DNA from: a virus
Reading direction: 5' to 3' (one strand)
DNA: 28,303 nt
IMG/VR virus record: IMGVR_UViG_3300006071_000074
Location: 1 to 28,303 of that record
The position numbers and the translations under genes were made by a program. The notes under the pieces are model-generated. The model saw nothing but the letters and a program-made list of their open reading frames with translations, did no database searches and had not been told where the DNA came from. Positions 1,821 to 26,369 of this stretch are shown here, piece by piece; positions within the stretch are counted from its first letter, which is position 1; the number at the start of each line of letters is the position of its first letter.

Positions 1821-2122
1821 TGTCAGCACAATATTCTAACACAAGTCCTTGGTATACTACTCCAGTTAAAAATAATTATTTGGATATTTTATCTATACGA
1901 CCTGTAAGTGCAGAAGTGGATGATTTTCTTTATACAATAGAACCACAGTATGCTTACCGTCCAGATTTATTGTCGTATGACTTGTATGGAACAACACAGC
2001 TATGGTGGGTGTTCATGCAACGCAATCTTGATGTTCTTCAAGATCCTATTTTAGATTTCTCTCCAGGAACTCAAATTTATATTTGTAAAAATAGTAGTCT
2101 AACTACAGCATTAGGTTTATAA
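1820..2122 (+). CDS. 53: Baseplate wedge protein gp53
   Basis: A 100-residue protein with the gp53 hallmark YAYRPDLLSYDLYGTTQLWW (residues 44-63), followed by VFMQRN and SPGTQIYICKN (81-91), which resembles the end of a LysM-like fold. In T4, gp53 clamps the wedge to the central hub at the late stage of baseplate assembly. T4 gp53 is 196 aa, so this is a compact version retaining the recognisable region. Its ATG shares a base with the stop of the preceding gene, and there is only a weak GGA upstream, so it is probably translated by coupling. The next gene follows after one base. Confidence 0.85.
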   Translation: MSAQYSNTSPWYTTPVKNNYLDILSIRPVSAEVDDFLYTIEPQYAYRPDLLSYDLYGTTQLWWVFMQRNLDVLQDPILDFSPGTQIYICKNSSLTTALGL

Positions 2123-6017: not shown

Positions 6018-6458
6018 ATGGCTACAAGTTTACACACTAGAACAACCATAGAGCAAACTAAAACTACTCCTCAACGTACAGTACAGCGTTATAGGGGATT
6101 CAGTACAGTAAGCACCGCCACTAAAAATTTTGCCTTATATGATTTTGAATTAATTAAACAAGACTTATTAAATCATTTTTATGTCAGACAGGGCGAACGT
6201 TTAATGAATCCAACTTACGGAACCATTATTTGGGACGTATTATTTGAGCCTTTAACAGAAGAAATAAAGAATCTTATACTACAAAATGTTAATCAGATTT
6301 TTAATAGTGATCCTCGTGTGCAAGCAGGAAATATTGTGATTACACCCTACGATCAAGGCCTACAAATACAATGTACACTAACATATTTGCTGTATAATTT
6401 GCAGGAAGCCTTACAATTAAAGTTCGATCAAGACAACGGATTGTTACTTACACAATAA
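6018..6458 (+). CDS. 25: Baseplate wedge protein gp25 (GPW/gp25 family)
   Basis: A 146-residue protein with the GPW/gp25 core: DFELIKQDLLNHFYVRQGER (42-61), RLMNPTYGTIIWDVLFEPLT (61-80), then NLILQNVNQIFNSDPRV and a beta-sheet region to LTYLL. The EPR-like signature of the family appears here as the FEPL segment. gp25 binds the core bundle of gp6/gp7 and, with its sheath-like fold, starts sheath assembly. The first 40 residues are a Thr-rich extension. It starts one base after gp5 with AAGGAA as ribosome-binding site. It is followed by a 47-nt gap with a new late promoter, so it ends the first baseplate operon unless transcripts read through. Length is close to T4 gp25 (132 aa). Confidence 0.92.
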   Translation: MATSLHTRTTIEQTKTTPQRTVQRYRGFSTVSTATKNFALYDFELIKQDLLNHFYVRQGERLMNPTYGTIIWDVLFEPLTEEIKNLILQNVNQIFNSDPRVQAGNIVITPYDQGLQIQCTLTYLLYNLQEALQLKFDQDNGLLLTQ

Positions 6459-9500: not shown

Positions 9501-9994
9501 TTAATTTAATTAAATCTATCAGCGACGAAATAATTTATCATCCAGTTACATATAAACTTTTATTTGGACCAGCTGCCGATCCTAGTTTACAAGCAACGTT
9601 TAATGTTATGGTAAATCCAAATAGTGCTGTATCAAATGCTGACATTCAAGCCCGTGTGTTATCTGCAATAAACACATTCTTTGCCCTTGAAAATTGGAAC
9701 TTTGGAGACACATTTTATTTTTCAGAACTAAGCACGTACATTATCAATCAACTAGCACCCGATGTTATAAATTTTGTAATTGTTCCAGTACAAACTAATC
9801 AATACTTTGGTAGTTTGTTTGAAATTCAGTGTCCAAGCAATCAAATATTTGTTAGCTGTGCAACTACATCTAATATTGTAATTGTATCAGGATTAACTAA
9901 CACAAATTTAAAAACAGTAACAGGTACAGCTTTGAACTCATTTACAACTAGTCAAAATATTATCAGCGCAAACTACGGAGTAACTAATGGCTAA
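6506..9994 (+). CDS. 6: Baseplate wedge protein gp6 (enlarged)
   Basis: A 1162-residue protein. The first 130 residues are typical gp6: DWQKIYQSFKNADFQSYDFD, LRRTMIDYIRTNFPEDFNDY, SEYLALIDLIAFVGQSIAFR, ARENFLELAERRDSVLRLAR. Around 430-490 is the gp6 motif NRMITGEDYNINPLSATTKV followed by VKAVNRTSSGISRYFDLVDP. The C-terminal 110 residues (ALENWNFGDTFYFSELSTYI, LAPDVINFVIVPV) match the gpJ-like end that forms the inner baseplate ring. gp6 dimers join neighbouring wedges into a continuous ring. T4 gp6 has 660 residues; the extra length lies mainly between about 490 and 1040 as beta-rich, Asn/Thr/Tyr-rich sequence (for example DQDVTFYFDTNVKIYDTI) that I cannot assign. The stop overlaps the next start by 8 nt. 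Confidence 0.9.
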   Translation: MSSTDRLNNLLVSEDWQKIYQSFKNADFQSYDFDNLRRTMIDYIRTNFPEDFNDYIESSEYLALIDLIAFVGQSIAFRVDLNARENFLELAERRDSVLRLARLISYNARRNTAAKGLLKVNTVQTTEVLYDSNGRNLAGQFISWNDPANANWYDQFIKVINAALPQTQQFGSPVDQATIYGVPTAQYRFNANNTDIPIYTFTKTIAGRNMVFEITSTTFKGQPYIYEEPPKIGNSIACVYRDDGHGAGSPGTGFFFNFTQGILNQGTFNVSVPTSNQVIDINTQNINNSDVWLYGLNQSTNLESTLWTQVPALTGNNIIYNSLNSSVKDIYSVITRASDAISLSFSDGTFGNLPLGNFRIYYRVSNGLTYSINPGDIINVIINIPYISQSNKAETLSVSLSLATTVSNAATTETNASVKTNAPQTYYTQNRMITGEDYNINPLSATTKVAKVKAVNRTSSGISRYFDLVDPTGKYSSTNIFADDGILYREPFTTSVNFTYVTQSDIQGVIYNTIYDILNTPSLRDFYYTNFVDFLTSSLNVSWYSVTTDSNTSSGYIGTFNNPYKVSSFTYTDLRYLTPQSLIKFTAPTGYHFDKNDGNKLKPNQSPSNPTGTSFYIWAEVVSVSEDGTGNGTGKTVAGNGPIVLNRSIPTRYYADGTVEAAPIANQIIPKFTTTISSSVITTMVDLILENKPFGLRYDVSTQSWQIIFEQSLNKTGPFSLANQGNTSALNLDSSWFLLFDTNNEYYTVTSRQLRYVFESDQDVTFYFDTNVKIYDTISSNTITDTIKVLSVNPDSLNLNKPYTEDISWQVVSEYVGQDGYIDPTKIVISFADTNNNGVVDNPQLFTDIVNNTYIVQQKYSISNGQEDYKYVYNNPTDLNVGPVIFTTSTGFSDLNLIDGQYLYFTDTQVVTQYTSTSVNPIPTLDYKVYTGRDKLKFQYVHSADYDSRIDPGSSNIMDVYVLTSDYDSQFRQWLVGSNVTEPLPPSSDELNNLLSPTLNLIKSISDEIIYHPVTYKLLFGPAADPSLQATFNVMVNPNSAVSNADIQARVLSAINTFFALENWNFGDTFYFSELSTYIINQLAPDVINFVIVPVQTNQYFGSLFEIQCPSNQIFVSCATTSNIVIVSGLTNTNLKTVTGTALNSFTTSQNIISANYGVTNG

Positions 9995-12900
9995 TGCTAA
10001 TAACCCAACAGGTATCACAAGCCCTAGTTTAAACTTATTACCAAAGTATTTTCAAACTCCGGCAAATAAAAAGTTTTTACAAGCAACAATAGACCAGTTA
10101 TTCCAACCAGGTAGTGTTACAAAAACTAGCGGATTTATCGGAAGAGAAAATGCAAAAGCTGCTATAGGCACTGACAATTATATTTCAGCTGCAGATACAA
10201 CACGACAAAATTATCAACTAGAGCCAGGTATTACTATTAGAGATAGTCTTGGTAATGTTAAATTCTTTAAAGATTACATTGACTATATTAATCAAATTGG
10301 CGTCTTTGGCGGTAATACAAAGAGTCACCAACGCTTAAATTCACAAGAATTTTACAGTTGGGATCCGCATATCGATTGGGATAAGTTCGTTAATTTTCAA
10401 AATTATTATTGGTTGCCGTACGGTCCAGAAGTTATTAAAATTTATGGACAGCAAGAAAAAATTTCTAGTACTATCTCTGTAGAATTACAAAATGAAGGAG
10501 CAAATAATCAGTATGTGTTTACTCCTGATGGATTCACACCTGATCCAATACTTAAAATTTATAAAGGTCATACTTATACATTTGTAATCAATAGTCCAGG
10601 TAATCCTTTTAGTATTAAATTATCTCGATCTATTGGTTCCATTGATAGATATATTAATAGAAACATTGATAACTATGCGGTAACTGATGGAACAATAACT
10701 TTTACTGTGCCGCTAGATGCACCAAGTATACTATATTATCAAAGTGAAACAGATATCAATCTTGGTGGTAGTATTGAAGTTTTTAGCATTGATGAAAATA
10801 GCTTTATCGATGTTGAAAAAGATTTTCTTGGAAAACAAACATACAAATTAACAGACGGTACCGCTATTAGTAACGGTATGAAAGTAAGTTTTGGTGGTAA
10901 TGTTACACCTGCTAGTTACGGAAAAGGTGAATATTATGTTGATGGTGTAGGTACAGCAATACGTTTAGTACCAACTAGTGTTTTAGAAATTATCACACCT
11001 TATACTATTGAACAAACTTCTGCATTTGATAGCACACCATTCGAATCTGAACCATTTAGTGATGCTACTGGCTATGCCAGCGTACAAGACTATATCACTA
11101 TTAACAGAACAAGTCGAGATCACAATCCTTGGTCAAGATATAATCGTTGGTTCCACCAAGATGTAATTAAAGCAAGTTGTGCTTATAACAACATTGCACC
11201 TGAGTTAGATCAAAAAGCTAGAGCAACACGACCAATTATTGAATTTGTTTCAGATTTAAAATTATTTAATTTTGGTACACAAGCCATAACAGATGTAGAT
11301 TTAATTGATAATTTTACAGTAGACGTATTTTCAACCATAGAAGGAAGTAGTGGTTATAATATCGACGGCGTTGATCTAGTACAAGGACATAGAATTTTAG
11401 TTACAGCTGATATTGATCCATTAGTTGTTAATAAAGTTTACGAAGTAACTTTTGTAGATCTGCGTCATTTAAATTCTGGTAGTAAACAAATTCATTTAGT
11501 AGAAGCTGAAACTCCTACCGTTGGACAAACAGCTATAATTAAATCTGGTAAAACTTATTATAGCCAAATGTTCTGGTTTAATGGAACAACTTGGGTAGAA
11601 GCACAACAAAAAACTAATACCAATCAAGCGCCATTGTTTGATATAGTAGACAACAATGGAATTAGTTACGGAGATACCAGTGTATATAATGGATCTACCT
11701 TCAAAGGCACACAGTTATTTTCTTACAAAGTTGGCAATAGTATCAATGATAGCGTTTTAGGTTTTCCATTAAGCTATCAAAATGTAGCAAACATTGGTGA
11801 TATAGTTTTTAATTTTAATCTAGCAACTGATAGTTTTCAATACAAACAAACTACAAATCTTATTACACAAAAAATTGATGTAGGATTTTTAGTAGGACAA
11901 GACTATGCAGGCCGTCCTATGTACCAGAACGGTTGGCAAATTTGCAATACTAAAACTGTACAAGCCGCTGTTAGAATTTATAAAAATTCTAAGATTACAA
12001 ATAATTTTAATTTAGATATATTTGACGATATTACAAATCTTTCAGATTTAGTTGTTCGCATTTATGTTAACGGGCAAAGATTAAATTCTACCGAATGGAA
12101 GTTAGTTGATACTACTCTTTATAAAAAAATTGTATTAAACACAGCAATATCGTTAACAGATGTGTTGACAATTAAAGCATTTGCTGCACAGCCTATAAAT
12201 TCTAACGGTTATTATGAAATACCGATTAATTTACAAAATAATCCATTAAACGATAGTATGGCGGACTTTACATTAGGTGAAGTTACCGATCATGTAAACA
12301 CAATCGTAGACAATATTGATTTTATTGGAGCTTTTCCGGGTGAAAGCGATTTAAGGGATCTTGGTAATATAACACAATACGGTACACGTTTTGTGCAACA
12401 TAGTGGACCATTAAGTCTTAGCTTATATCATATAACAAGTGAAAATACAAATGTAATTAAAGCAATTGAAACTGCTCGAGATGATTACAATAATTTTAAA
12501 CGTAATTTCTTATCTATTGCTTCTAACTTAGGTATAGATGCAGATCCAGTTACTATGGTTGATTTAATTTTACAAAAAATTAATGCCAACAAACCAAATA
12601 CAGCACCTTATTATTTTACCGATATGGTTCCATACGGTGCAAAATTAGTAACAGATTTGCCTGTTGTTGACGGTAGAATTAAAAAGTATCCTCTTACAAC
12701 TGTATTCAATTTAGACACAATGTCTAATAAAGCGGTTGGTGTATATTTAAATCAAGTACAACTTGTGTATGGAACCGACTATACTTTTGATAGTCAAGGA
12801 TTTATTGATATAATACATTCTCTAGTTACCGGTGATACTATAACTACCTACGAATATGAAAGTACTGACGGTTGTTTTATCCCATCAACACCTACAAAAT

Positions 12901-15900
12901 TAGGAATGTGGCCAAAGTATGAACCAAAGAAATACTTAGACACTACATTATTGACTCCTGTAAACATTATTCAAGGACATGACGGAAGTTTAGTCTTAGC
13001 ATACAATGACTACAGAGATGATATTATTTTAGAATTAGAAAAACGTATTTTTAATAACATAAAAGTTCAATACGATCCTACTATTTTTGATATTAATGAT
13101 ATTATTCCTAGTTATAATAGAACAAATGATTATAGCCGAGTAGAATTTGAACAAGTATTAGCACCTAATTTTTATAAATGGACAGGATTAATTGGTAGCG
13201 ATTTTACTAAACCTCTAAGCTACGATATTGGAAATCCATTTACATACAACTACAAACGTAGTACTGGACCTACTGGTGGAAAGATACCAGGATACTGGAG
13301 AGGTATTTACAAATATTTGCTAGACACTGACCGTCCAAACATTTGTCCTTGGGAAATGCTAGGGTTTAGTATTATGCCTAGCTGGTGGATTAGTGTCTAT
13401 GGGCCTTCTCCTTACACTAAAGATAATCTTGTAATGTGGCAAGATATATCTGAAGGTATAATTAGAGAACCTGGAAAACCTTTAGTATATCAAACCAAAT
13501 ATGCTAAACCTTTCTTAATGAACTGCATTCCAGTAGACGAGTCTGGTAATTTATTAAACCCAACAATAACAGGGTTAGCCAATGGTCCAATTACACCAAG
13601 TGTTGATGGCGATTATGTATTCGGTGATGTTGCGCCAGTTGAGAATGCTTGGCGTAGAAGTAGTTATTATCCGTTCAGTGTTATTGCAGCCAGTTTATTA
13701 TTAACTCCTGCAAAAACATTTGGAACATTATTAGATAGAAGCAGAATTGTTAGAAATCTCGCCGGTCAATTGATTTATAAAGACACTGGTTTGCGTCTAC
13801 GTCCAATGGATATAATTCTGCCAAGCATATATTCTAGTGAAAACAGAGTACAAACATCTGGTATTATTAACTATGTTATAGATCTTATTTTAAATTATAT
13901 TTTTAGTAATAATCTTGCTAGCTATAACAGTTACGAAACTGATTTGGCATTAATGACAGCACAACTAAGTTATCGTGTTGGTGCATTTACAAATCAAGAT
14001 CAATTTAATCTTTTACTAGAAAGTAAAACTCCGATGAGTACTGGAAATGTATTCATTCCAAAGGAAGATTATAGTATATTCTTAAACACAAGTAGCCCTG
14101 TTAAGAAATTAACTTACAGCGGTGTAATGATTACTAAACTTCAGACAGGATATCAAGTCCGTGGATATAGTAGAACGCAACCGTATTTTTATTATTATGA
14201 TTTCCAGCAATCAGGATCAGCAATAAATGTCGGCGGAATAAGTCAAACATATTCTGTTTGGACTCCAGGCCAACAATATATTGTAGGGTCTATTGTTGAA
14301 TATAATAACAAATATTATAGAACAGTAGTTGCTAATACCGAGTCAACATTTGATACACAATATTTCCAAGTATTACCTGGCTTGCCTGCTGTAGGCGGCG
14401 TTGATGTTATTTTTAGAAAAATTTGGGATCGCTCAACTTTAATTACTGTACCCTATGGAACAGAGTTTAGTTCTGCTCAGGAAGTAGTAGACTTCTTACT
14501 AGGCTATGGTGAATATTTAAAAAACCAAGGATTTGTATTTGATGACTATAATAGCAATCTTGAATCTGTGTTAAACTGGGAAACTAGTGCAAAAGAATTT
14601 TTATTTTGGAGTACACAGAACTGGAGCACTGGTCAAGAAAAGTGGAGTGATTGGAAACCAAATCAAGCAATTTCTTATGGAACTATTTTAAGATATAACG
14701 GAAATTACTATAGTGCTATAACTAATATTCCTCCTAGCGCCGAATTTAACGCAGACGATTTTAATAAATTAGATGGGTTAAGTGCTGCAGGAGCAAGTGT
14801 TATCAGTTTAAGCCCAAGCGCGGCTGCTGTAACATTTACAACTACACTAACTGTAGTTGATGATATTAGTAACAAGTTTAATAATTACGAAATTTTTAAA
14901 GTAGACGGAACTAGTATTTCTCCTAAACAAATGGACAGTTATAGAGAAGGTAACACTATTACCTATGCTCCAAGAACAACTGATGGAATTTATAGTGCTA
15001 GTTTTTACTTAATACAAAACGAACACGTTGTTACAATTAAAAATACTGATATTTTTAATGATGTAATTTACAATCCTCCAAGCGGATATAGACGTGAACG
15101 TATTAAGGTAAGTGGTTATGTAACCACTAACTGGTATGGCGGATTAGATATTCCTGGATTTATATTTGATGCTGCTAGTGTAGATAGCTGGCAACCATGG
15201 CAAGACTATAATATGGGAGACATAATTCTACATCAAGGACATTATTATAGTGCAAATAAATTTTTAGCAGGGTCGGACACATTTGTTTCTAGCGATTGGT
15301 CTGTAATGTCTAAAACACCTAGCCCAGTTATTATGCCAAACTGGACTAATTTGGCAACACAATTTACAGATTTCTATAGTTTAGAAGTTGATAACTTTGA
15401 CTCTCAACAACAAAAGATGGCACAACATTTAATTGGCTATCAAAAACGTCAATATCTTGAAAATATTATTCAAGATGATGTTAGCGAATTTAAATTCTAT
15501 CAAGGAATGGTTCGTGAAAAAGGAACACAAAATGTTCTTAATAAGTTGTTTAATGTTTTAAGTTCAGACAACGCAGAAAGTTTAATGTTCTACGAAGAGT
15601 GGGCGTTACGTGTTGGTCAATATGGTGCCAATCGTGCATTTGAAGATGTTGAGTTTGTATTAGATGAAGGCAATTTTAATAGTAATCCTCAAGCTGTAGC
15701 ACTAGTACAACATTACGATTCATCTATTAATGATTTTGTTATTCAACAAGCTGCACAAGATGTATATCTAAAACCAGCAGGATACAATTCTAATCCGTTT
15801 CCTGTGTTTGATGATACTAATCCTTACAAGCCATTGTTACGTAGTGCAGGTTATGTTAACCCAGCAGACGTATTATTAAGTTTAGGAACTATAGACGAAT

Positions 15901-18900: not shown

Positions 18901-21900
18901 TTTATAGTTACGTTAAACCGTCTGACAAATACAGCTGGACTCTTGATAAGACATCTAGTTTGATTCCAATTGTTAGCCGAGTTAAGAAAGCATTCTTATA
19001 TAATAAAAATCTTGGAACACTTGTATCTTACTTAGATACTATTGATCCATTGCAAGGAAAAATTGCAGGCGTTGCAGATGAAGAAATAAAATATAAATCT
19101 TTCTATGATCCTGCGGTGTATTCTGATAATCCAGGATCTGTTAATGTTAATGCAGATAACTCAAGTTACTGGTCAAAGAATCAAATTGGTCAGTTATGGT
19201 GGAATTTAAGTACCGCCAAGTTTGTTGAATCTTATTTTGATGATGTAAATTATAGAAATAATAGTTGGAACAAACTAGCCCCAGGTGCAAGTATAGATAT
19301 TTACGAATGGGTTGAATCAAAATTATTGCCAGCTCAGTGGGATGCACAAGCAGATACTCCTGCTGGACTTGCTTTAGGTATAAGCGGTACAAGTTTATAT
19401 GGCAATAATGTATACAGCGTAAGACAGCAATATAATAATCTTACTAAAGCATTTGTTAAGACTTATTATTTCTGGGTTAAAAATAAATCAGTAGTTCCGC
19501 ATGTACCGGGACGTAATATTACAGCATTGGATGTTGCCAGTTTAATTGCTAACCCTCGCGGACAAAGTTATTCTTACTTGTCTTTGTTAGGTCCGGATTC
19601 ATTTAGTTTAACTAATACTCGTCAGTATTTGAAAGATAAAGATGTAGTACTAGCGGTAGAGTATTGGTTAACAAATAAAACAGATCAGAATATTCATAGT
19701 CAATGGAAATTAATTAGTAACGATCCTATTGTGGATTTACCGTTGACATTAGAACAAAAATGGTTTGATAGTTTATGCGGTGTTGATTCGGCAGGACGTG
19801 GTGTTCCAGATTTGACTCAGCCTCCTAAACTACGATATGGTGTAGAGAATCGTCCACGTCAAAGTATGTTTGTAAATCGTATTGAAGCTCTTAAAGAGTT
19901 TGTAGAACGTACAAACAGAACATTGATTTTAAATCAAATTAGTGAAAACTATAATATTAGTGCTTTAGAAAGCTACGATACTCCTCCAACAGTGATATCA
20001 GGTCTATATGATAATACTCTTGACACTGATGCAGAGTTACCATATTTGAATATTACATCATTTAGAAAAGCAATTTTAAATCCTGTAATTACTAACGGTA
20101 CAATTACAAGTATAGATATTACTTTTGCAGGTAGCGGTTATTTAATTGCACCTACAGTAACTATCGATAGTCCGGGAAAAAATGCTGTACTTAAAACAAC
20201 AATTAATAGCCTAGGACAAATTACTAATGTGTCAGTAGTCAGCGGAGGCTTTGGCTACGATATTAGTAATACAACATTAACAGTAAGAACTTATTGTGTG
20301 TTAGTAAAAAGCGATAGTGTTGCCAACAATAATTGGAGTATCTATGCATACGATACTACATCTAAGATATGGTCACGTATACTTACACAAGCATATGATG
20401 TGAGAAATTATTGGAATTATGTTGATTGGTATGCAACTGGGTATAGTCAGTATAGTGCTCCAGATCATGCTGTGGATACATTTGTAGGGTTAAACACTCT
20501 TCAATCTAAAATAGGCGAACTAGTAAAAGTTCGTACAGTAAATGCAGGCGGTTGGTTGTTACTAGAAAAATATGCAAATTCGACCAGTGTTGATTGGACT
20601 CAAAGTTATAACATAGTAGGTATACAGAATGGTACAATACAATTAAGTACTAAACTTTACAACTTTGAATCTACTAATATTGGTTATGACAGCGACATAT
20701 TTGATGGCGGAAGTTTTGATGTTGTTGCTAGTACAGAATTAAGAATTATTCTTAATACAATTAAAGAAAATATCTTTATTGGTAATTTAAAACAAAACTA
20801 TTTAGACTTGTTCATTGCTGCAATACACTATGCACATAGTGAACAAGTATATATTGATTGGGCATTTAAAACTAGTTTTGTTCGTGCAACACATAATGTA
20901 GGTAAGTTAGATCAACCAGTAAACTACCCTGTTGATAATATTGCTAACTTTGAAGATTATGTTTCAGAAGTTAAACCATACAGAACAAAATTAAGAGAAT
21001 ATATTAGCAACTACACAGGTTTAGAAGTTGGACAAAGTGCCATTACTGATTTTGATTTACAACCTGTTTATTCAAATAACAAAGTTGTACCAGTTGATAC
21101 TATATTTGACGGAACTGGTGTATCTTCTAATAACTCTGTTATACAAACTTATCCTTGGAAATTCTGGAATGATAATTTAGGATTTGTTGTTACAGATCTT
21201 GTTATTATCAGCGGAGGTTCTAATTATATAACTCCTCCACAAGTTATTATAACTAGCGAAAGTGGTTCTGGTGCAACAGCTCAGGCATTTATAGTTAATG
21301 GTGCTGTAAGTAGAATAGTATTAACTAATCCTGGAACAGGATACTTGTCTACCCCAACAGTTACTATTTCAGGAGGACTTGGCCCAATAGGAATATCAGC
21401 CAGGGTAATTGCTGTTATTGGTAAAGGTGTAGTTCGTGGTTCGTTAATTGGAATAAAATTTGATAGAACTGACTATACGTATTATAATACAGTATTACAA
21501 AAAACACAAACGTTCACTGGTTCTGGTAGCAGATTGCAATGGGCGTTGACTTGGGCTCCTGATACACGTATTGGTCAAAATACAGTTACTATCAATGGCA
21601 TACCTGCACTTAGAGAAAATTATAAACTTTCTGTTATTAAAGCAAAATATAACGGCTATACACATTACACTGGAGTTATTACTTTTTTAACACCTCCGTC
21701 TAATCAGAGTATTATAGTTGTTACATATAAGATAAATCAATCTTTATTAAATGCTGTTGACCGCATTCAATATTACTATAATCCAACAAGTGGCCAACTA
21801 GGAAAAGATCTTACACAGTTATTAACTGGAACTGATTATGGTGGCGTACAAGTTAATGGTTTAGGATTTAATAGTATTCACGGTTGGGATTCAAACCCAT

Positions 21901-24900
21901 TTGGAACTGATACTTGGGATAATTTTGATAGTAATTATACTGACTATTTTGTTACAGCTACTGCAGATCAACTTAGATCTTTTACACTACCTTATCAATT
22001 GAATCCTGGTACTGAAATAAACGTATATCATGCTGCAAGTACTGAAGATAGAACAACCATATCTGCACTGAACTCTAATCAAATTAAATTTGAGTATAAT
22101 ATTTTAGCTACTACCGTAGTTGTAACATCAGTAGTTACAAAAACAGCTGCAGGACCTACAACTACGTACAACCCAGTAGGAAGTTACTATACTACACTTA
22201 CTGTTTCCGACGCTACTGGAATTTTAATAGGAATGGCTGTTGTTGGAACAGGTTTTACTAGCGGACAAACAGTGACGTATGTTGATTATACTAATAAAAC
22301 ATTAACTTTGAGTAAAGCTCCTGATAGTACACCAACAGGCGTATTAACATTTACATATAACTATGCTGGTAGTAATAAACTTACTTTAAATAGCGTTGAT
22401 GGAATTAATTTAGGAGATGTTGTTACTTCAGATGCTGTATCAGTATTTGCATACGATACGGTAGTTGAAAATATTGACACTAATACAAATACAATTACAT
22501 TAGGAACACCAGATTCTTCTACTACTTTAAATGCAAACAATATTAGTGGTGACGGTCACACAGTTACAATAACGTTTGACACTCAAAAATATGTTCCATT
22601 TGAATCTGGTACTACTATTATTGTAACAGGATTTATTCCAAATTCTTACAACGGCATTTATAAAGTCACCAATGCATCATTTAATTTTGTAAGTTTTACA
22701 AGTTTGTTGCAAGCACCTTCAACTACAATTGGTACTGTAAGTTTAATTTTAAATTCTGTAATCTTTAAGGATCCTGCACAAATTAATAATTATTATCCAA
22801 TTGTTAATGGCAATTCGATACAGTTTACTAAACTACTAAAAGATACAATCGATATGGTAGTAAATAACGACGGTACAGTAGTATTATTATCTTATGTTCC
22901 TGCAATTGGAGCAGAAATTGTTATCACTGGAAAAACAAGTCCTGTAAGATTAGACGATCCAAAATTTGGAACAGTGGATCAGAAAAATTCTAAGGCAAAA
23001 ATGCAAACACCGTTCCCGGTATTTTCAGTTACTGTTACTAGTCCGGGTCGTTATACTCAGTTGCCTGCAATAACATTTAGCGATTCTGATCTCAATGCTC
23101 CAAGTTATACAGCATCAGCAACACCAATAATGAAAGCTGTTGATGTATCTTATAACGGAAACAATCTCGGAACTGGCTATACTGTTGGCGACATACTAGT
23201 AGCAACTCCACAGTATGGTCCTGCTAATGTAACAATGATCAATTCTTCTATAGTTAATTCAACACTAGTTGTAGGAACTATAACTTCTGGCGAAATTTAT
23301 CCAGGAATGATTTTAACCGGATCAGGAATTGCACAATTTGATTCATTAATCAGCACAGGAATCCGTGGCGATGGAACAATCGCAACTATCACATTTGCAA
23401 CTCGTGCTAGTATACCATTTGCATTAGGCCAGTATACAGAAGTATCTGGATTTCCTAATGGATTTAACGGAAAATATATAGTTACTGATGTTACTGACCA
23501 TTCTGTTTCTTATGAAAACACCACGGTGTTATCGCAAACATTTGTAGTTGGTACAGTTTCTAGCGTTGATATAACATACATTACAGGCCTTGATCCGTCT
23601 AGTCATGGAACTGGCAATGGCAGTTTCTGGACATTAAATCGTAAATTAACTACCGCTTCGACTACTATTACTGGTTCGAGTGCTGTTATTTTACAAGTAA
23701 CAAGAACAGCCAGCTTTACAGAAATTGGACCAATTGATGAATTACAAATATTGTCTTCAACAATATATGAAGGTGGAGTTGATGAAGCCAGCCAATCATT
23801 AATGGGAGGCACTGGTCAAAATGCAACAATTACTTTAGTTTATGGTGTGGACTCTGTTGTATTAGCAAATCCAGGTAGTGGATATTTAAATAATCCAACT
23901 ATTACATTTGAACAAGGTATTGAAACCGCTACAGCAACTGCTACAATTAGACAAGTGGTTAATTCTTCTACAGCAAATACAGTTGTGACAATATCTGATA
24001 GTTATCCAGTGACTGTTGGTGATGAATTTGTTATTCGTCAAGCATCTAGTGATGGATCAGTTGCACCTGCTGATCAAGATTATGATACATCGATTACTGG
24101 CGGCGATTTAGCTTATACTACAGCAACTGGTATTTTAGCAGATGATATTATCATTGATGGTGACGGATTAGTAACACCAACATCTAGTCCTGCTCCAGAA
24201 GAAGTAATGCCAGGACAAGTAGTTGATACATTGGCTATTAAAGTATACGATCAAACATACAATGCTGGAGCAAAAGTTAAAATTGACAACTATGTTGGCG
24301 ATGGTAGCTTATTAACATTTGCATACAGTCAATTATTAAACAATCCAGGTGCGATTGTAGTAAAAGTTGATAATGTAATTAAAGTAGCGGGTGTGGATTA
24401 TAATGTTTCATTTAATCAGAACAGAATTGTTTTTGTTCAACCACCTGCAGCTAATAAAATTATTAGTATTTTTACTATTGGTATTAATGGTCAAAATATT
24501 TTAGACGGTGATTATTTTATTTGTGATGGAATTACATCAGAATTTATCACCAGAGCTAAATGGCTGGATACTGTTTCATCTGTAATTTATTTAAATGGTG
24601 TATTAGTAAATCCTATATTGTTTAAAACAGACAATACATACTCGTTAGGCGGTATGATTGGTTTGCGTTTTAGTGTAACTCCTGCAGCAGGATCTGTAAT
24701 AAACTATATTATCGTAGCAAGTGCTATTCAAACGGTTGCAGTTACGCAAACTGAGTTATTACCGTTGTATGCAATACCTCAGAATACATTTAAATTAGAT
24801 AATCCTGTTGGTGTTGGTTTACCTGCAGAATCAAATATGATTGTAATAGTTGACAATACTGTATTGGAAGCTCCTGCTAATAGTTATTTTACAATAACAT

Positions 24901-26369
24901 CTGATACGCTTGCTTATACTATTTCAGCTGACCAGTTTACTTTAAATGCTGTTCAGTATTCAGATGTTAGGGTGTATATTGATAAAAAGTTAATAGCTTT
25001 GAATAAAGAATATGTTGTTGACCTAACTGGCCTTACAGTGACGTTGCGTAAAAAAATACGTGATAAGAATATAGGAAAACAATTAGTTGTTAGTATTAGA
25101 ACCAATGCAGAGTATTCTTATGATTCTACAACTGGAGATTTAACATTAAATAATTCTTATGATAGCAGTCATAAAATTCAAGTATTAACATCTTATAATC
25201 ATGATATATTAGATCTTGAAAGAACTACAGTTAATATTTCTTCATTAGTATCTTCGATACCAGGATCTGTTGATTATTATCGTTATCAAGATGCAACACG
25301 TGGAATTATCAATTTAAATCATACTGTACCTGACGAAGAATATGCTTGGATTATTCAAAACGGACGTTTGTTAACTCCGTTAATTGATTATCAGATGCTA
25401 TCAAATCACCAAAGTGTGCAATTAACAGTTCCACCTGCCCCAACTGATAAGATTTCAGTGTTATTGTTTAACAACAATGTACCACAACCTGGAATTTCAT
25501 ACATGCAGTTTAAAGACATGTTGAACAGAACTGTTTATAAGAGACTGGCACTCAACCGACATACACTATTGGCACAAGAGCTAAATTGGTATGACACACA
25601 AATTGTAGTTAAAGATGGAACAGTTTTAACAACACCAAACCCTTCAACTAACAAACCAGGTGTGATAGAAATTGCCGGTGAACGTATCGAATATTTTAAG
25701 AAAGATCTTAATATATTAAGTCAGTTACGTAGGGGAACTTTAGGAACTGGTGTTAGATCTTATAGTAATGTAGGAACAAGTGTACAAGATATTGGTACAG
25801 ATTCTACTATCCCGTACAGTGATATTACCGATGTGAGGCCAATTATTTCAGATGGAGTAACTACAACATTCAATCTAGACCTTGGATTTACATTAGATCC
25901 TACTTTTACAGACTATAATTCATTATTTGAAGTATTTGTAGGCGGACAGGATGACTTAAGAAGATTGAAAAAATATGATTATGTTCATTACAATCCTACT
26001 TTAGCTCCTTACAGTCCAACAATTCCTATCTCTGATACAGATCCAGTTGGTACAATTAAAGACGGCGATGAAAAGTTTGCTAAAGAATTTGTTGTTTCTA
26101 ATGTAACTACAGCAGGATCAGTAATAACATTGGCAAACGTAGTTACACAAGGTACTCAAATTACGATAATTAGAAAGAGCGGCCAGTCGTGGGACGGCGA
26201 CCATTCTGCTAATCCTGTTAATATATTGAATGATGTAAGTAATATTGCATCTTTCCTTAAGGCCACTCCGGGTATATGGTATACTGGATTTAACAACAAC
26301 AGAAAACTAACTATAGATAGTTCTAAAGTAACATTCGACAGCGGTAATGTAACATTAGACAAAGGATAA
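9987..26369 (+). CDS. Giant modular baseplate/virion structural protein (5460 aa), gp7 position
   Basis: A single uninterrupted frame of 5460 codons with CGGAG before its ATG, overlapping gp6 by 8 nt. It occupies the place of gp7 in T4 but I cannot prove gp7 homology. Core-like segments that recall large cyanophage-type structural proteins: PKYFQTPANKKFLQATIDQL (19-38), NYYWLPYGPEV (139-149), FYQGMVREKGTQNVLNKLF with FYEEWALRVGQYGANRAFED (about 1835-1885), SRVKKAFLYNKNLGTLVSYL to NRTLILNQI (about 2995-3320), DYGGVQVNGLGFNS (3950-3963), PEEVMPGQVVDTLAIKVYD (4737-4755), and LRRGTLGT near 5250. Between these lie modules: four CBM-like units, a seven-bladed propeller (2141-2990), GSGY-type repeats, two pairs of duplicated beta domains, and many short VYxNGxxL-type beta units. 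No signal peptide, transmembrane helix or catalytic motif was seen. Estimated mass is about 0.6 MDa. Likely a peripheral baseplate or host-contact protein. Confidence 0.72.
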   Translation: MANANNPTGITSPSLNLLPKYFQTPANKKFLQATIDQLFQPGSVTKTSGFIGRENAKAAIGTDNYISAADTTRQNYQLEPGITIRDSLGNVKFFKDYIDYINQIGVFGGNTKSHQRLNSQEFYSWDPHIDWDKFVNFQNYYWLPYGPEVIKIYGQQEKISSTISVELQNEGANNQYVFTPDGFTPDPILKIYKGHTYTFVINSPGNPFSIKLSRSIGSIDRYINRNIDNYAVTDGTITFTVPLDAPSILYYQSETDINLGGSIEVFSIDENSFIDVEKDFLGKQTYKLTDGTAISNGMKVSFGGNVTPASYGKGEYYVDGVGTAIRLVPTSVLEIITPYTIEQTSAFDSTPFESEPFSDATGYASVQDYITINRTSRDHNPWSRYNRWFHQDVIKASCAYNNIAPELDQKARATRPIIEFVSDLKLFNFGTQAITDVDLIDNFTVDVFSTIEGSSGYNIDGVDLVQGHRILVTADIDPLVVNKVYEVTFVDLRHLNSGSKQIHLVEAETPTVGQTAIIKSGKTYYSQMFWFNGTTWVEAQQKTNTNQAPLFDIVDNNGISYGDTSVYNGSTFKGTQLFSYKVGNSINDSVLGFPLSYQNVANIGDIVFNFNLATDSFQYKQTTNLITQKIDVGFLVGQDYAGRPMYQNGWQICNTKTVQAAVRIYKNSKITNNFNLDIFDDITNLSDLVVRIYVNGQRLNSTEWKLVDTTLYKKIVLNTAISLTDVLTIKAFAAQPINSNGYYEIPINLQNNPLNDSMADFTLGEVTDHVNTIVDNIDFIGAFPGESDLRDLGNITQYGTRFVQHSGPLSLSLYHITSENTNVIKAIETARDDYNNFKRNFLSIASNLGIDADPVTMVDLILQKINANKPNTAPYYFTDMVPYGAKLVTDLPVVDGRIKKYPLTTVFNLDTMSNKAVGVYLNQVQLVYGTDYTFDSQGFIDIIHSLVTGDTITTYEYESTDGCFIPSTPTKLGMWPKYEPKKYLDTTLLTPVNIIQGHDGSLVLAYNDYRDDIILELEKRIFNNIKVQYDPTIFDINDIIPSYNRTNDYSRVEFEQVLAPNFYKWTGLIGSDFTKPLSYDIGNPFTYNYKRSTGPTGGKIPGYWRGIYKYLLDTDRPNICPWEMLGFSIMPSWWISVYGPSPYTKDNLVMWQDISEGIIREPGKPLVYQTKYAKPFLMNCIPVDESGNLLNPTITGLANGPITPSVDGDYVFGDVAPVENAWRRSSYYPFSVIAASLLLTPAKTFGTLLDRSRIVRNLAGQLIYKDTGLRLRPMDIILPSIYSSENRVQTSGIINYVIDLILNYIFSNNLASYNSYETDLALMTAQLSYRVGAFTNQDQFNLLLESKTPMSTGNVFIPKEDYSIFLNTSSPVKKLTYSGVMITKLQTGYQVRGYSRTQPYFYYYDFQQSGSAINVGGISQTYSVWTPGQQYIVGSIVEYNNKYYRTVVANTESTFDTQYFQVLPGLPAVGGVDVIFRKIWDRSTLITVPYGTEFSSAQEVVDFLLGYGEYLKNQGFVFDDYNSNLESVLNWETSAKEFLFWSTQNWSTGQEKWSDWKPNQAISYGTILRYNGNYYSAITNIPPSAEFNADDFNKLDGLSAAGASVISLSPSAAAVTFTTTLTVVDDISNKFNNYEIFKVDGTSISPKQMDSYREGNTITYAPRTTDGIYSASFYLIQNEHVVTIKNTDIFNDVIYNPPSGYRRERIKVSGYVTTNWYGGLDIPGFIFDAASVDSWQPWQDYNMGDIILHQGHYYSANKFLAGSDTFVSSDWSVMSKTPSPVIMPNWTNLATQFTDFYSLEVDNFDSQQQKMAQHLIGYQKRQYLENIIQDDVSEFKFYQGMVREKGTQNVLNKLFNVLSSDNAESLMFYEEWALRVGQYGANRAFEDVEFVLDEGNFNSNPQAVALVQHYDSSINDFVIQQAAQDVYLKPAGYNSNPFPVFDDTNPYKPLLRSAGYVNPADVLLSLGTIDELTTQDITKFNNGDCVWVAFEGNSWNVYRYTDMNITVENAIYNPTLKQITISTKYLSGITAGMYIGISQVSQFSGFYKVESVNLNSFVISKTVNGWINPFVEQDRMVVFAMISQRTTSINNLDSVIKKDLLPGEIVWTDDAGSKSWGTWKYNPVYSEFLVNNSFPSDETNFGLRVSVNKKGDMLAVGDNRGNVVTYYRAQSNLSWAEKQLISAPTVSSISDNTPVSAIAFSPDGTWLAVGSKSAGSVSSSYKGEYNSSLDYGSNSIVKLGDSLYRTLTAIQHEYIVTDFSATTTSLGSGAIFDVVVVPTATRVIGDATVPTAGYYNVVIKYGGIGYAPGNKIKISGTQLGGISPDDDLTITIPTDGVTTTSSIKLNAAITISGSPSTLNNGILLAKTTPGVSGSVISGAGATLRIITPPYGYRIAPNSGALGGTRYSIGDTITVLGSQLGGVNVVNDFILTVSSVDQNGAISNFTVNGQPSWQQISYIPSEINRYGQLIESGYFSIGNTYEISVLGTTDWNYIANTTGVTYNVGDTFVARQSGKVLATDLQSGSTYVIIFQGTSNFLLAGASSNAIGTAFIADAPITGTGFVFNGTGVAIEQIKAYDSTTVGQGIVTLYKKNNDNFYSIVDTIISEDPVDNENFGATLVFGQDSLYVGALGGSSYDGLTNNVGRVYKLSYGVQKSVSATYNPVGSSGVTLVVSSTNPIPLYNVSPGMLVTGTGFISGQYVLQILSTTTLILSAPPTGTPDGTITFKTIDWGYNSFLAGTTVGDNFGRNIQVSADNSIIAISTEDGNGNGIVQIFKNGITLQPISGTDVSFGTSLSVSDDGVYIVVGDGTQNGTVNVYKFNGAEYGPTPYQTLVDHYSEIQGHFGNKVAFMNGGKTIAVYSQSGNASITTTFDSYAKTLENNQDNPYLSDTTSQATTPSTYDKNSTLFVQTQIGSGRVDIYDMYGDKWVFSESLQSADTSSDGYGIGFSAGDNTVVVGAPYATDQTHIQSGQVYSYVKPSDKYSWTLDKTSSLIPIVSRVKKAFLYNKNLGTLVSYLDTIDPLQGKIAGVADEEIKYKSFYDPAVYSDNPGSVNVNADNSSYWSKNQIGQLWWNLSTAKFVESYFDDVNYRNNSWNKLAPGASIDIYEWVESKLLPAQWDAQADTPAGLALGISGTSLYGNNVYSVRQQYNNLTKAFVKTYYFWVKNKSVVPHVPGRNITALDVASLIANPRGQSYSYLSLLGPDSFSLTNTRQYLKDKDVVLAVEYWLTNKTDQNIHSQWKLISNDPIVDLPLTLEQKWFDSLCGVDSAGRGVPDLTQPPKLRYGVENRPRQSMFVNRIEALKEFVERTNRTLILNQISENYNISALESYDTPPTVISGLYDNTLDTDAELPYLNITSFRKAILNPVITNGTITSIDITFAGSGYLIAPTVTIDSPGKNAVLKTTINSLGQITNVSVVSGGFGYDISNTTLTVRTYCVLVKSDSVANNNWSIYAYDTTSKIWSRILTQAYDVRNYWNYVDWYATGYSQYSAPDHAVDTFVGLNTLQSKIGELVKVRTVNAGGWLLLEKYANSTSVDWTQSYNIVGIQNGTIQLSTKLYNFESTNIGYDSDIFDGGSFDVVASTELRIILNTIKENIFIGNLKQNYLDLFIAAIHYAHSEQVYIDWAFKTSFVRATHNVGKLDQPVNYPVDNIANFEDYVSEVKPYRTKLREYISNYTGLEVGQSAITDFDLQPVYSNNKVVPVDTIFDGTGVSSNNSVIQTYPWKFWNDNLGFVVTDLVIISGGSNYITPPQVIITSESGSGATAQAFIVNGAVSRIVLTNPGTGYLSTPTVTISGGLGPIGISARVIAVIGKGVVRGSLIGIKFDRTDYTYYNTVLQKTQTFTGSGSRLQWALTWAPDTRIGQNTVTINGIPALRENYKLSVIKAKYNGYTHYTGVITFLTPPSNQSIIVVTYKINQSLLNAVDRIQYYYNPTSGQLGKDLTQLLTGTDYGGVQVNGLGFNSIHGWDSNPFGTDTWDNFDSNYTDYFVTATADQLRSFTLPYQLNPGTEINVYHAASTEDRTTISALNSNQIKFEYNILATTVVVTSVVTKTAAGPTTTYNPVGSYYTTLTVSDATGILIGMAVVGTGFTSGQTVTYVDYTNKTLTLSKAPDSTPTGVLTFTYNYAGSNKLTLNSVDGINLGDVVTSDAVSVFAYDTVVENIDTNTNTITLGTPDSSTTLNANNISGDGHTVTITFDTQKYVPFESGTTIIVTGFIPNSYNGIYKVTNASFNFVSFTSLLQAPSTTIGTVSLILNSVIFKDPAQINNYYPIVNGNSIQFTKLLKDTIDMVVNNDGTVVLLSYVPAIGAEIVITGKTSPVRLDDPKFGTVDQKNSKAKMQTPFPVFSVTVTSPGRYTQLPAITFSDSDLNAPSYTASATPIMKAVDVSYNGNNLGTGYTVGDILVATPQYGPANVTMINSSIVNSTLVVGTITSGEIYPGMILTGSGIAQFDSLISTGIRGDGTIATITFATRASIPFALGQYTEVSGFPNGFNGKYIVTDVTDHSVSYENTTVLSQTFVVGTVSSVDITYITGLDPSSHGTGNGSFWTLNRKLTTASTTITGSSAVILQVTRTASFTEIGPIDELQILSSTIYEGGVDEASQSLMGGTGQNATITLVYGVDSVVLANPGSGYLNNPTITFEQGIETATATATIRQVVNSSTANTVVTISDSYPVTVGDEFVIRQASSDGSVAPADQDYDTSITGGDLAYTTATGILADDIIIDGDGLVTPTSSPAPEEVMPGQVVDTLAIKVYDQTYNAGAKVKIDNYVGDGSLLTFAYSQLLNNPGAIVVKVDNVIKVAGVDYNVSFNQNRIVFVQPPAANKIISIFTIGINGQNILDGDYFICDGITSEFITRAKWLDTVSSVIYLNGVLVNPILFKTDNTYSLGGMIGLRFSVTPAAGSVINYIIVASAIQTVAVTQTELLPLYAIPQNTFKLDNPVGVGLPAESNMIVIVDNTVLEAPANSYFTITSDTLAYTISADQFTLNAVQYSDVRVYIDKKLIALNKEYVVDLTGLTVTLRKKIRDKNIGKQLVVSIRTNAEYSYDSTTGDLTLNNSYDSSHKIQVLTSYNHDILDLERTTVNISSLVSSIPGSVDYYRYQDATRGIINLNHTVPDEEYAWIIQNGRLLTPLIDYQMLSNHQSVQLTVPPAPTDKISVLLFNNNVPQPGISYMQFKDMLNRTVYKRLALNRHTLLAQELNWYDTQIVVKDGTVLTTPNPSTNKPGVIEIAGERIEYFKKDLNILSQLRRGTLGTGVRSYSNVGTSVQDIGTDSTIPYSDITDVRPIISDGVTTTFNLDLGFTLDPTFTDYNSLFEVFVGGQDDLRRLKKYDYVHYNPTLAPYSPTIPISDTDPVGTIKDGDEKFAKEFVVSNVTTAGSVITLANVVTQGTQITIIRKSGQSWDGDHSANPVNILNDVSNIASFLKATPGIWYTGFNNNRKLTIDSSKVTFDSGNVTLDKG
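14259..15314 (+). repeat. Three carbohydrate-binding-module-like units in the giant protein
   Basis: Three diverged units share W-x-Y/I-x-G-x-I-x-x-x-x-x-Y-Y-x-A/T: WTPGQQYIVGSIVEYNNKYY (from residue 1425), WKPNQAISYGTILRYNGNYY (about 1556) and WQPWQDYNMGDIILHQGHYY (from 1735). The pattern W..Y..Gd.V.y.g..Y.a is that of the CBM5/12 chitin-binding fold common in phage tail proteins. A fourth copy, YKGEYNSSLDYGSNSIVKLG (from 2221, nt 16647), lies inside the propeller insertion. They probably bind surface glycans, but ligand and even binding are inferred from the fold pattern only. Confidence 0.55.
16635..17729 (+). other. Module string inserted within propeller blade 2
   Basis: Blade 2 begins FSPDGTWLAVGSKSAG (to about 2216), and the strand that should close it, GIVTLYKKNNDNFYSI, appears only at about 2585. 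The roughly 365 residues between hold, in order, a CBM-like unit, two copies of a GYxxGDxIxxxGxxLGG unit (GYAPGNKIKISGTQLGG at 2305; YSIGDTITVLGSQLGG at 2406), and two copies of a GxTYxIxxxGTTxF/W unit (GNTYEISVLGTTDWNYIA at about 2477; GSTYVIIFQGTSNFLLAG at about 2526). Both latter types are, from memory, common repeats in cyanophage-type structural proteins. Confidence 0.6.
17961..18167 (+). repeat. Duplicated beta-domain A, copy 1
   Basis: Residues 2659-2727 of the giant protein: TYNPVGSSGVTLVV, then VSPGMLVTGTGFISGQYV and LILSAPPTGTPDGTITF. It matches a second copy at 22164-22358, about 1400 residues downstream. This copy is placed directly after propeller blade 3 (GRVYKLSY) and before blade 4. 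Diverged at nucleotide level, so an old duplication or independent acquisition of the same module. Confidence 0.75.
20118..20292 (+). repeat. GSGY-type beta repeat (two units)
   Basis: Residues about 3378-3435 of the giant protein contain AGSGYLIAPTVTIDSPG followed by ITNVSVVSGGFGYDISNTTL. The pattern V-x-N/S-x-G-x-G-Y-x-x-x-P-x-V-x-I recurs elsewhere in this gene (21199-21420, 23022-23210, 23857-23962). Function unknown; such short units are frequent in phage fibre and baseplate appendage proteins. Confidence 0.6.
21199..21420 (+). repeat. GSGY-type beta repeat (two units)
   Basis: Residues about 3738-3811 hold LVIISGGSNYITPPQVIITS and IVLTNPGTGYLSTPTVTISG, two units of about 40 residues joined by a Gly/Ala-rich strand (SGSGATAQAFIVNGAVS). 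The second unit is close to VVLANPGSGYLNNPTITFEQ at 23857-23916, which suggests the same module was used repeatedly. Confidence 0.65.
22164..22358 (+). repeat. Duplicated beta-domain A, copy 2
   Basis: Residues 4060-4124 of the giant protein: TYNPVGSYYTTLTV, IGMAVVGTGFTSGQTV, LTLSKAPDSTPTGVLTF. It corresponds to copy 1 at 17961-18167 through TYNPVGS, the GMxVxGTGFxSGQ core and the L-x-L-S-x-A/P-P-x-x-T-P-x-G-x-x-T-F ending, with a 5-residue gap in the middle. Confidence 0.75.
22548..22748 (+). repeat. Duplicated beta-domain B, copy 1
   Basis: Residues 4188-4254 of the giant protein: GDGHTVTITFDTQKYVPFES, VTGFIPNSYNGIYKVTNAS, TTIGTVSLI. It pairs with the copy at 23364-23567 through the frame GDG-x-x-x-T-I-T-F-x-T-x-x-x-x-P-F, V-x-G-F-x-N-x-x-N-G-x-Y-x-V-T and G-T-V-S. 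Function unknown; about 67 residues, predicted all-beta. Confidence 0.75.
23364..23567 (+). repeat. Duplicated beta-domain B, copy 2
   Basis: Residues 4460-4527 of the giant protein: RGDGTIATITFATRASIPFA, VSGFPNGFNGKYIVTDVT, FVVGTVSSV. See copy 1 at 22548-22748. The stretch between the copies (about 205 residues) contains a GSGY-type unit and a GTGYTVGDILVATP unit. Confidence 0.75.
25661..25800 (+). other. LRRGTLGT-type fibre/attachment motif near the C-terminus of the giant protein
   Basis: Residues about 5225-5271: GVIEIAGERIEYFKKDLNIL then SQLRRGTLGTGV and VQDIG. The pattern I-x-I-x-G-E-x-I-x-Y-x-x-K-x-x-x-x-L-x-x-x-x-R-G-x-x-G-T is widely seen in phage tail and fibre-attachment proteins. 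It marks the C-terminal region as fibre-like. The last residues, LTIDSSKVTFDSGNVTLDKG, are a short strand repeat. Confidence 0.6.

Follow-up and report, generated by a model that had tools for sequence, protein, structure and literature searches.

The window analysed here is the entire 28303-base stretch of the virus record IMGVR_UViG_3300006071_000074. Its plus strand carries a T4-type baseplate cluster in which a gp53-like gene, a virion protein gene, gp5, gp25 and gp6 are followed by a giant gene, the subject of this analysis, and by a gp10-like gene. A late sigma factor is encoded on the opposite strand at the left end of the window. The genes of the cluster, with protein lengths in amino acids (aa), are as follows.

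1820..2122, plus strand: gp53-like baseplate wedge subunit, 100 aa; phrog_7145 at E 1.3e-26, PF11246 at 21.4 bits (cut-off 21).
2124-4382, plus strand: unnamed virion protein.
4385..6016, plus strand: gp5-like baseplate hub / tail lysozyme gene, 543 aa; phrog_13211 at E 4.5e-58.
6018..6458, plus strand: gp25-like baseplate wedge subunit, 146 aa; PF04965 at 30.1 bits (cut-off 27.2), phrog_261.
6506..9994, plus strand: gp6 baseplate wedge subunit, 1162 aa (660 in T4); phrog_10646 at E 2.5e-292, T4 gp6 profile at probability 65.9 and E 5.7e-5.
9987..26369, plus strand: giant gene, an open reading frame for one 5460-aa protein; phrog_10938 in three of four pieces.
26375..28117, plus strand: gp10-like gene, 580 aa, with a T4 gp9/10-type N-terminus and internal repeats; PF07880 at 23.9 bits (cut-off 25).

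As the gene order in T4 is gp6, gp7, gp8, gp9, gp10, the giant occupies the gp7-gp9 interval. The gp10-like gene on the contig of a related locus (L008) reaches 26.6 bits with PF07880, which is above the cut-off. A nucleotide search of the window against named phages returned no match. The phage of the window is referred to here as a probable jumbo phage, since the contigs carrying its relatives reach 223 and 259 kb.

The giant frame starts with an ATG and runs for 5460 codons without an internal stop, as the initial annotation had stated. It overlaps the end of gp6 by 8 bases, and the next gene begins 5 bases past its stop. The product has a computed mass of 599 kDa and a pI of 4.8, and the length ratio to T4 gp7 (1032 aa) is 5.3, in agreement with the factor of about five given earlier. 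The contig behind L008, which is 57.8 kb long and comes from another metagenome, encodes an identical 5460-aa protein. In a comparison with the window at the nucleotide level, which covered 32 of 80 loci, L007 aligned over 15906 bases with 0 differences, and L008 and L009 aligned over 23985 bases each, with 1 and 0 differences. Of 80 related loci fetched with a chassis piece of the giant, 55 contain a complete giant frame, with a median of 4986 aa. Counted from the first ATG, 54 of these frames span 3883-5658 aa; two of the 54 belong to the phage of the window and two are longer. Because of the identical protein, the near-identical loci and the 55 complete frames, both chance and misassembly, which had been named as a possible refutation, are excluded. 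In the remaining complete locus (L174), a frame change at about 9875-9905 splits the giant into overlapping frames of 2697 and 2278 codons with the same content; either a natural frameshift or faulty sequencing could explain this.

According to profile comparison, the giant is a member of a known family, PHROG 10938 ('virion structural protein', 3324 positions), which matches three pieces of it at E 1.3e-176, 1.5e-63 and 5.1e-82; the fourth piece, the C-terminal 1260 aa, had no PHROG match at E 0.1. Members of the family include PA5oct gp355, CBB gp236, Atu_ph07 gp180, SCTP-2 gp140 and gene 424 of Vibrio phage 2.275.O. In tblastn searches, residues 1-2000 matched 115 phage records, in 31 of which a single place covered at least 80% of the query; many of the remaining records are cyanophages that match residues 163-267 alone. 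Residues 2001-4000 matched 72 phage records, and the 30 matches listed fall in the region of about 2947-3811. The last 1460 residues matched nine phage records, all of Pseudomonas, over 101 residues only. A scan of bacterial and archaeal genomes found a single relative (L298, PAOW01000002.1), a 16.9-kb contig filed under a Euryarchaeota metagenome-assembled genome, with 40% identity in the best segment; this is perhaps a phage contig that was binned by mistake. We did not find the domain layout of these giants set out in the literature, of which this was not a full review.

The initial annotation placed the giant where gp7 stands in T4, and this placement is supported: among the related loci, 79 extend 3.6 kb or more upstream of the giant, three of them from the phage of the window, and all 79 have gp6 immediately before it, and gp25 is also upstream in 76 of the 79. 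A single gene of 3340-4449 aa likewise follows gp6 in Atu_ph07, PA5oct, CBB and Vibrio phage 2.275.O. In SCTP-2, gp6 was not found by tblastn before the giant, unlike in these four phages. The 3807-aa SCTP-2 homologue is preceded by a 9.3-kb gene (L004 6609-15899, about 3096 codons). The proposal of a baseplate-type virion protein is supported both by this place and by mass spectrometry of homologues. The PA5oct gp355 record carries an electrospray ionisation tandem mass spectrometry note, which makes it a virion protein, and CBB_236 is reported from virions with 21 unique peptides and 7.72% coverage (PMC5259590). For phAPEC6, 17 unique virion peptides are reported for gp245, a 381.88-kDa protein adjoining wedge protein gp244 (PMC7247149); from its place and size, gp245 is probably a homologue of the giant.

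The initial annotation had hinted that the size of the giant is exceptional, which does not hold. The homologues in the five named jumbo phages have 3340-4449 aa, and the proteins that follow gp6 in two cyanophages have 5195 and 6817 aa. The giant is near the top of its family, yet precedented, and a large size at the gp7 place is not new, as the giants of jumbo phages and cyanophages also follow gp6.

The anatomy of the giant was derived from two alignments, one combining nine uncultivated relatives with the five named phages and the other comprising 48 relatives, i.e. the 55 complete frames minus L116 and L117 (the phage of the window), the split L174 and identical copies. The following segments and modules were delimited.

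9987..15821, plus strand: chassis segment 1, residues 1-1945; length and sequence kept in the 48 relatives and largely in the five named jumbo phages.
18972..22046, plus strand: chassis segment 2, residues 2996-4020; standard deviation of length 3-11 residues per part.
16647..17726, plus strand: hypervariable cassette A, residues 2221-2580; between 1 and 367 aa long in the 48 relatives (median 66).
22047..24026, plus strand: hypervariable cassette B, residues 4021-4680; between 54 and 845 aa long in the 48 relatives (median 269).
10473..10787, plus strand: module at residues 163-267, 34.8% identical to ACG-2014d gp073, which is annotated as a gp9-type wedge/tail-fibre connector.
14244..14402, plus strand: CBM5/12-like module 1, residues 1420-1472; E 2.6e-14 to the module 2 profile, PF02839 at E 0.0011 (below cut-off).
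14604..14816, plus strand: CBM5/12-like module 2, residues 1540-1610; model of 1551-1596 superposes on 8fqc_P1 (Z 7.6, root mean square deviation 1.2 over 45 residues).
15171..15317, plus strand: CBM5/12-like module 3, residues 1729-1777; E 1.2e-10 to the module 2 profile, PF02839 at E 0.0037 (below cut-off).
Opening cassette A, plus strand: CBM5/12-like module 4, residues 2222-2254; E 6.4e-8 to the module 2 profile.
16395..18971, plus strand: possible beta-propeller region, residues 2137-2995; beta-propeller/WD40 Pfam families at about 2145-2213, E 1.9e-7 and 7.3e-5 (below cut-off).
20037..20321, plus strand: GxGY module, residues 3351-3445, from profile tiles; similar stretches in ACG-2014d gp071.
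21186..21419, plus strand: GxGY module, residues 3734-3811; E 6.5e-11 (reversed control 0.016).
21450..21791, plus strand: fibre-adaptor-like beta domain, residues 3822-3935, from structure-model matches.
24279..24701, plus strand: two further adaptor-like domains, residues 4765-4828 and 4838-4905; E 2.1e-5 and 3.3e-5 (best reversed control 0.0026).

The two chassis segments are steady, with length standard deviations of 2-33 residues per part and a mean identity to the window of 46-68%. Conservation is looser at residues 4681-5280 (standard deviation 4-45), and the counterpart of 5281-5460 spans 131 to 662 residues. The total length of the protein correlates with that of cassettes A and B (0.75), and the correlation rises to 0.89 if region 2137-2995 is included in full. 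Single-protein searches with residues 2221-2580 and with residues 4360-4680 each yielded three contigs, every one identical to the phage of the window, whereas chassis piece 3001-3321 found at least 595 relatives among the 599 matching stretches listed, on viral contigs; as the patterns differ between queries, these figures compare in order of magnitude only. A steady chassis with fast-changing cassettes would fit host-range pressure.

Alignments and profile tiles thus bear out the idea that core-like segments alternate with adhesin-like modules. The boundaries of the core differ from those first given (1-1420, 1740-2140, 2995-3320 and 4700-5460), being 1-1945 and 2996-4020 with a looser 4681-5280. 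With regard to the modules, those of the CBM5/12-like kind resemble carbohydrate-binding domains, and the one at residues 163-267 looks cupredoxin-like by eye. The best reversed control for the CBM-like profile tiles reached E 0.0043, and the giant stays below the curated PF02839 cut-off of 26.2 bits, at 19.4 and 17.7 bits. The propeller matches likewise fall short of their cut-offs (PF00400, 23.6 of 27 bits; PF23414, 31.2 of 90 bits). A GxGY fragment was also found by profile tiles at residues 4621-4642.

Two segments of the giant are of interest with regard to gp7.

15339..15686, plus strand: candidate gp7 core, residues 1785-1900, from profile comparison and the motif FY-x(6)-KGT...LF.VL at 1837.
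25650..25748, plus strand: GVIEIAGERIEYF..LRRGTLGTG segment, residues 5222-5254; E 7.4e-4 to the domain preceding the gp7 core in cyanophages.

The giant contains a single such motif, FYQGMVREKGTQNVLNKLFNVL at 1837, which is present in all five named jumbo homologues. Profiles of the cyanophage giants retrieve T4 gp7 at probabilities of 92-94, around FY-x-x-KG (T4 gp7 residue 734). As a control, 72 overlapping tiles of the giant were compared with gp7 profiles. With the cyanophage gp7 profile, the top four tiles were 5176-5325 (E 7.4e-4), 5101-5250 (8.8e-4), 1801-1950 (9.6e-4) and 1726-1875 (1.3e-3), the fifth being at 0.014. Tiles 1801-1950 and 1726-1875 align with the motif in register, and the tiles over 5222-5254 align with the domain found just before the motif in the cyanophage proteins. 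With a joint T4 and cyanophage profile, both motif tiles rank first (E 1.8e-3 and 1.9e-3), and reversed alignments of the segments gave E 0.13 or more. Before the tiling, three cuts of the candidate core were tried: the first, starting at residue 1830, left out the stretch just before it; the second had its best T4 gp7 match elsewhere (E 0.098) and placed the motif on P-SSM2 gp7 only, at E 0.35; the third, shorter one is the one quoted. BLAST of P-SSM2 gp7 and ACG-2014d gp071 against the giant found small modules only and no common core. Taken together, these profile matches are suggestive, not proof, and we lean towards homology of the giant with gp7.

Structure models were built for residues 940-2136 and 2990-4020 on alignments of 61 and 52 rows, after near-identical sequences and those with poor coverage or an unusual length had been dropped. 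The CBM-like domain at about 1551-1596 resembles a receptor-binding-complex chain of Milano (Z 7.6) and tail-fibre chains of 7-7-1 (Z 7.2), both Agrobacterium phages. The domain at about 3831-3928 resembles small beta domains in neck/portal-complex proteins of DT57C and T5 (Z 9.8 and 9.2), CBA120 TSP4 (Z 9.3), a baseplate-cup chain of KP1 (Z 8.1) and the T4 baseplate chain 5iv5_B (Z 6.5). Sharing a fold with these phage proteins is no proof of function. Among the predicted viral structures of BFVD, the closest entries are 'YHYH domain-containing' proteins of uncultured Caudovirales phages (54% identity in the best row) and the structural protein of Atu_ph07; a cyanophage 'baseplate wedge initiator' ranks far below them. 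In a PDB sequence search, residues 1-1500 had two chance-level matches (E 0.17 and 0.31), and the remainder of the giant and gp6 had none. The small barrel at residues 1999-2084 superposes on ubiquitin E1 enzymes, at their first catalytic cysteine half-domain, with 75-81 residues aligned and Z up to 9.5; phage proteins match it too, and the resemblance was taken as a common small-barrel arrangement.

T4 gp7 stands between gp6 and gp8. In the window, gp6 is upstream of the giant as in T4, but the next gene is gp10-like, and gp8 was not recognised in eight records of the group. A gp8 model that retrieves T4, P-SSM2 and ACG-2014d as positive controls had no match in four of four named jumbo phages and four of four related contigs of 165-259 kb, where gp8 may be diverged and the contigs incomplete. 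As the giants of G002 and G004 are identical (4914 of 4914), the four long contigs stand for three phages or so. An earlier gp8 search of nine contigs, run without a positive control, had no match either. That gp8 is unseen in the jumbo group would agree with a giant extending beyond the gp7 role; profile comparison detected no gp8-like stretch inside the giant.

Based on the gp6 neighbourhood and the family, we consider it likely that the giant serves as a baseplate wedge protein in a jumbo-type phage related to T4, where it takes the position of T4 gp7 and probably does its job. It most likely carries changeable host-gripping parts and is best read as a gp7-like wedge protein that would have been enlarged into an adhesive arm; the arms or skirt suggested by the initial annotation are a conceivable shape. 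T4 gp7 ties gp6, gp25 and gp53 to the outer parts, with one copy in each of six wedges. In this reading, a short segment near residue 1840 would dock the giant onto the gp6 of its wedge, and six copies, about 3.6 MDa, would ring the hub. The conserved chassis would hold the wedge together, and the adaptor-like domains could be offered to fibre proteins, perhaps to the gp10-like product of the next gene. The exposed CBM-like, GxGY and lineage-specific domains would then contact the host surface, and the signal of this contact would be passed on to the wedge. A bolder version, which we regard as possible and rather doubtful, is that one polypeptide does the work of gp7, gp8 and perhaps also gp9. 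Each wedge would then be built on a single 600-kDa chain whose surface bears changeable cassettes for host range; six such chains, ~3.6 MDa in all, would make up a skirt, and receptor recognition would reside in the wedge itself and not in separate fibres alone.

Several results weigh against the assignment as an enlarged wedge protein. The profile check against T4 gp7, gp8 and gp10 that had been proposed at the outset found no match: ten pieces of the giant, compared with T4 gp7, gp8, gp9 and gp10 profiles, gave a best probability of 2.4, and in the control the gp6 family profile of the window retrieved T4 gp6 with the values listed above. With the gp7 core of T4 alone, tile 1126-1275 scores best (E 0.0045), the KGT tile ranks outside the top eight, and the core segment by itself reaches E 0.16. 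Elsewhere in the giant, scores stay within a factor of ten: one cyanophage set gives E 0.0066 for residues 3400-4020, and the joint profile gives E 0.0047 for tile 4201-4350. The gp7 alignments span 28-58 columns only. The structure models are middling, with predicted local distance difference test (pLDDT) scores of 65.2 and 70.6 and predicted template modelling scores of 0.37 and 0.47, and the candidate core at 1781-1889 is modelled below pLDDT 50. Foldseek found no PDB match at E 0.001 or better for either model, and no chain described as gp7 is among the best 50 PDB rows listed. The adaptor and CBM matches concern small, widespread domains, and the propeller label stands on sub-threshold matches. 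Finally, the gp10-like gene is directly next in only 33 of the 55 complete loci, counted by eye, which weakens the fibre-docking step.

A gp10-like gene directly after the giant thus seems optional. In 21 of the 55 complete relatives (within L116-L195), the next gene is a small one starting with about MQ.KD.TGIHIEGHIKI, which elsewhere is located further on, and in one of the 55 a third kind of gene is next. Within the gp10-like gene of the window, at 26848-27091, there are tandem repeats 54 bases (18 codons) and 42 bases (14 codons) long, with 86-89% matches. On the 259-kb contig of L167 (G010:C1:129581 onward, plus strand) lies a second giant frame, of 5826 codons, the start of which matches the T4 gp9/gp10 N-terminal family at 28.5 bits; the contig of L034 (G002:C1:212565, minus strand) has a 3936-codon frame with a similar gp9/gp10-type start.

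The giant could instead be mainly an adhesin or fibre-type protein fixed to the outer side of the baseplate, with the wedge tied together by others, e.g. the enlarged gp6 or the virion protein at 2124-4382. Most of its recognisable domains are indeed of the adhesin or fibre-adaptor type, its homology to gp7 is not established and gp6 is well above its T4 size. However, large stretches outside the adhesin-like modules are equally or better conserved, the place after gp6 is fixed in all 79 loci, and the gp7-like segment aligns in register with the KG motif, so that we judge this explanation unlikely. Another explanation is a polyprotein, i.e. one chain cut into several mature baseplate and adhesin proteins. 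The giant spans the gp7-gp8-gp9 place of T4, and gp8 went unrecognised in the four named jumbo phages and the four long contigs. In addition, the reported peptide coverage of the homologues is low (7.6-7.7%), which leaves room for cutting. Against it, no gp8, gp9 or gp10 profile matches inside the giant; the phAPEC6 table gives the full mass for gp245, a figure that looks computed and does not decide. We find such processing improbable, and less credible than an adhesin on the outer side of the baseplate.

The last two explanations are much weaker. CBB has whiskers for which no genes are identified (PMC5259590), and the giant might form such whiskers or hairs along the tails of Rak2-like phages. 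Yet its gene lies within the baseplate cluster, adjoining gp6, and the CBB authors point to genes absent from GAP32, if GAP32 lacks whiskers (PMC5259590); GAP32 has a homologue of the giant. There is little to recommend this role. An assembly artefact joining separate genes has practically no chance of being correct: nothing in the window itself points to it, and the split frame of L174 is the one case among the relatives. It is ruled out by independent contigs, that is, by the identical protein from the other metagenome, the 54 single frames and the long homologues of the named phages.

The placement of the giant matters for annotation, as the family is common in viral contigs, given the at least 595 stretches that match one chassis piece. 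PHROGs files PHROG 10938 under 'head and packaging', and the members examined sit in the baseplate cluster; the baseplate placement would correct this misleading label and that of 'virion structural protein'. The candidate gp7 core and the mapped cassettes provide specific segments for structural and host-range work.

Compared with known systems, the giant is closest to the homologues of the five named jumbo phages, which it resembles over residues 1-1906 or so and about 2947-3690. It is longer than these homologues, which are largely devoid of residues 181-360 and of cassette A and align poorly in cassette B. T4 gp7 shares with the giant the place after gp6 and a candidate common core around KG. 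In contrast, it is five times shorter, has no significant profile match to the giant, and is followed by gp8 and gp9, which are unseen in the window. In pelagimyophages, T4 gp7 is reported to be missing and seemingly replaced by VrlC, a protein of pelagi- and cyanomyophages (PMC7029224). The cyanophages P-SSM2 (gp7, 5195 aa, annotated as baseplate wedge initiator) and ACG-2014d (gp071, 6817 aa) differ from the window in that the profiles of their giants match T4 gp7, that the motif lies near the N-terminus (at 206 and 707, versus 1837) and that gp8 is recognisable. Nevertheless, they also have a single giant gene directly after gp25 and gp6 and a FY-x-KG motif, and the GxGY modules are common to the giant of the window and ACG-2014d gp071. 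The gp7-place giants of jumbo phages and cyanophages may therefore be variants of one design.

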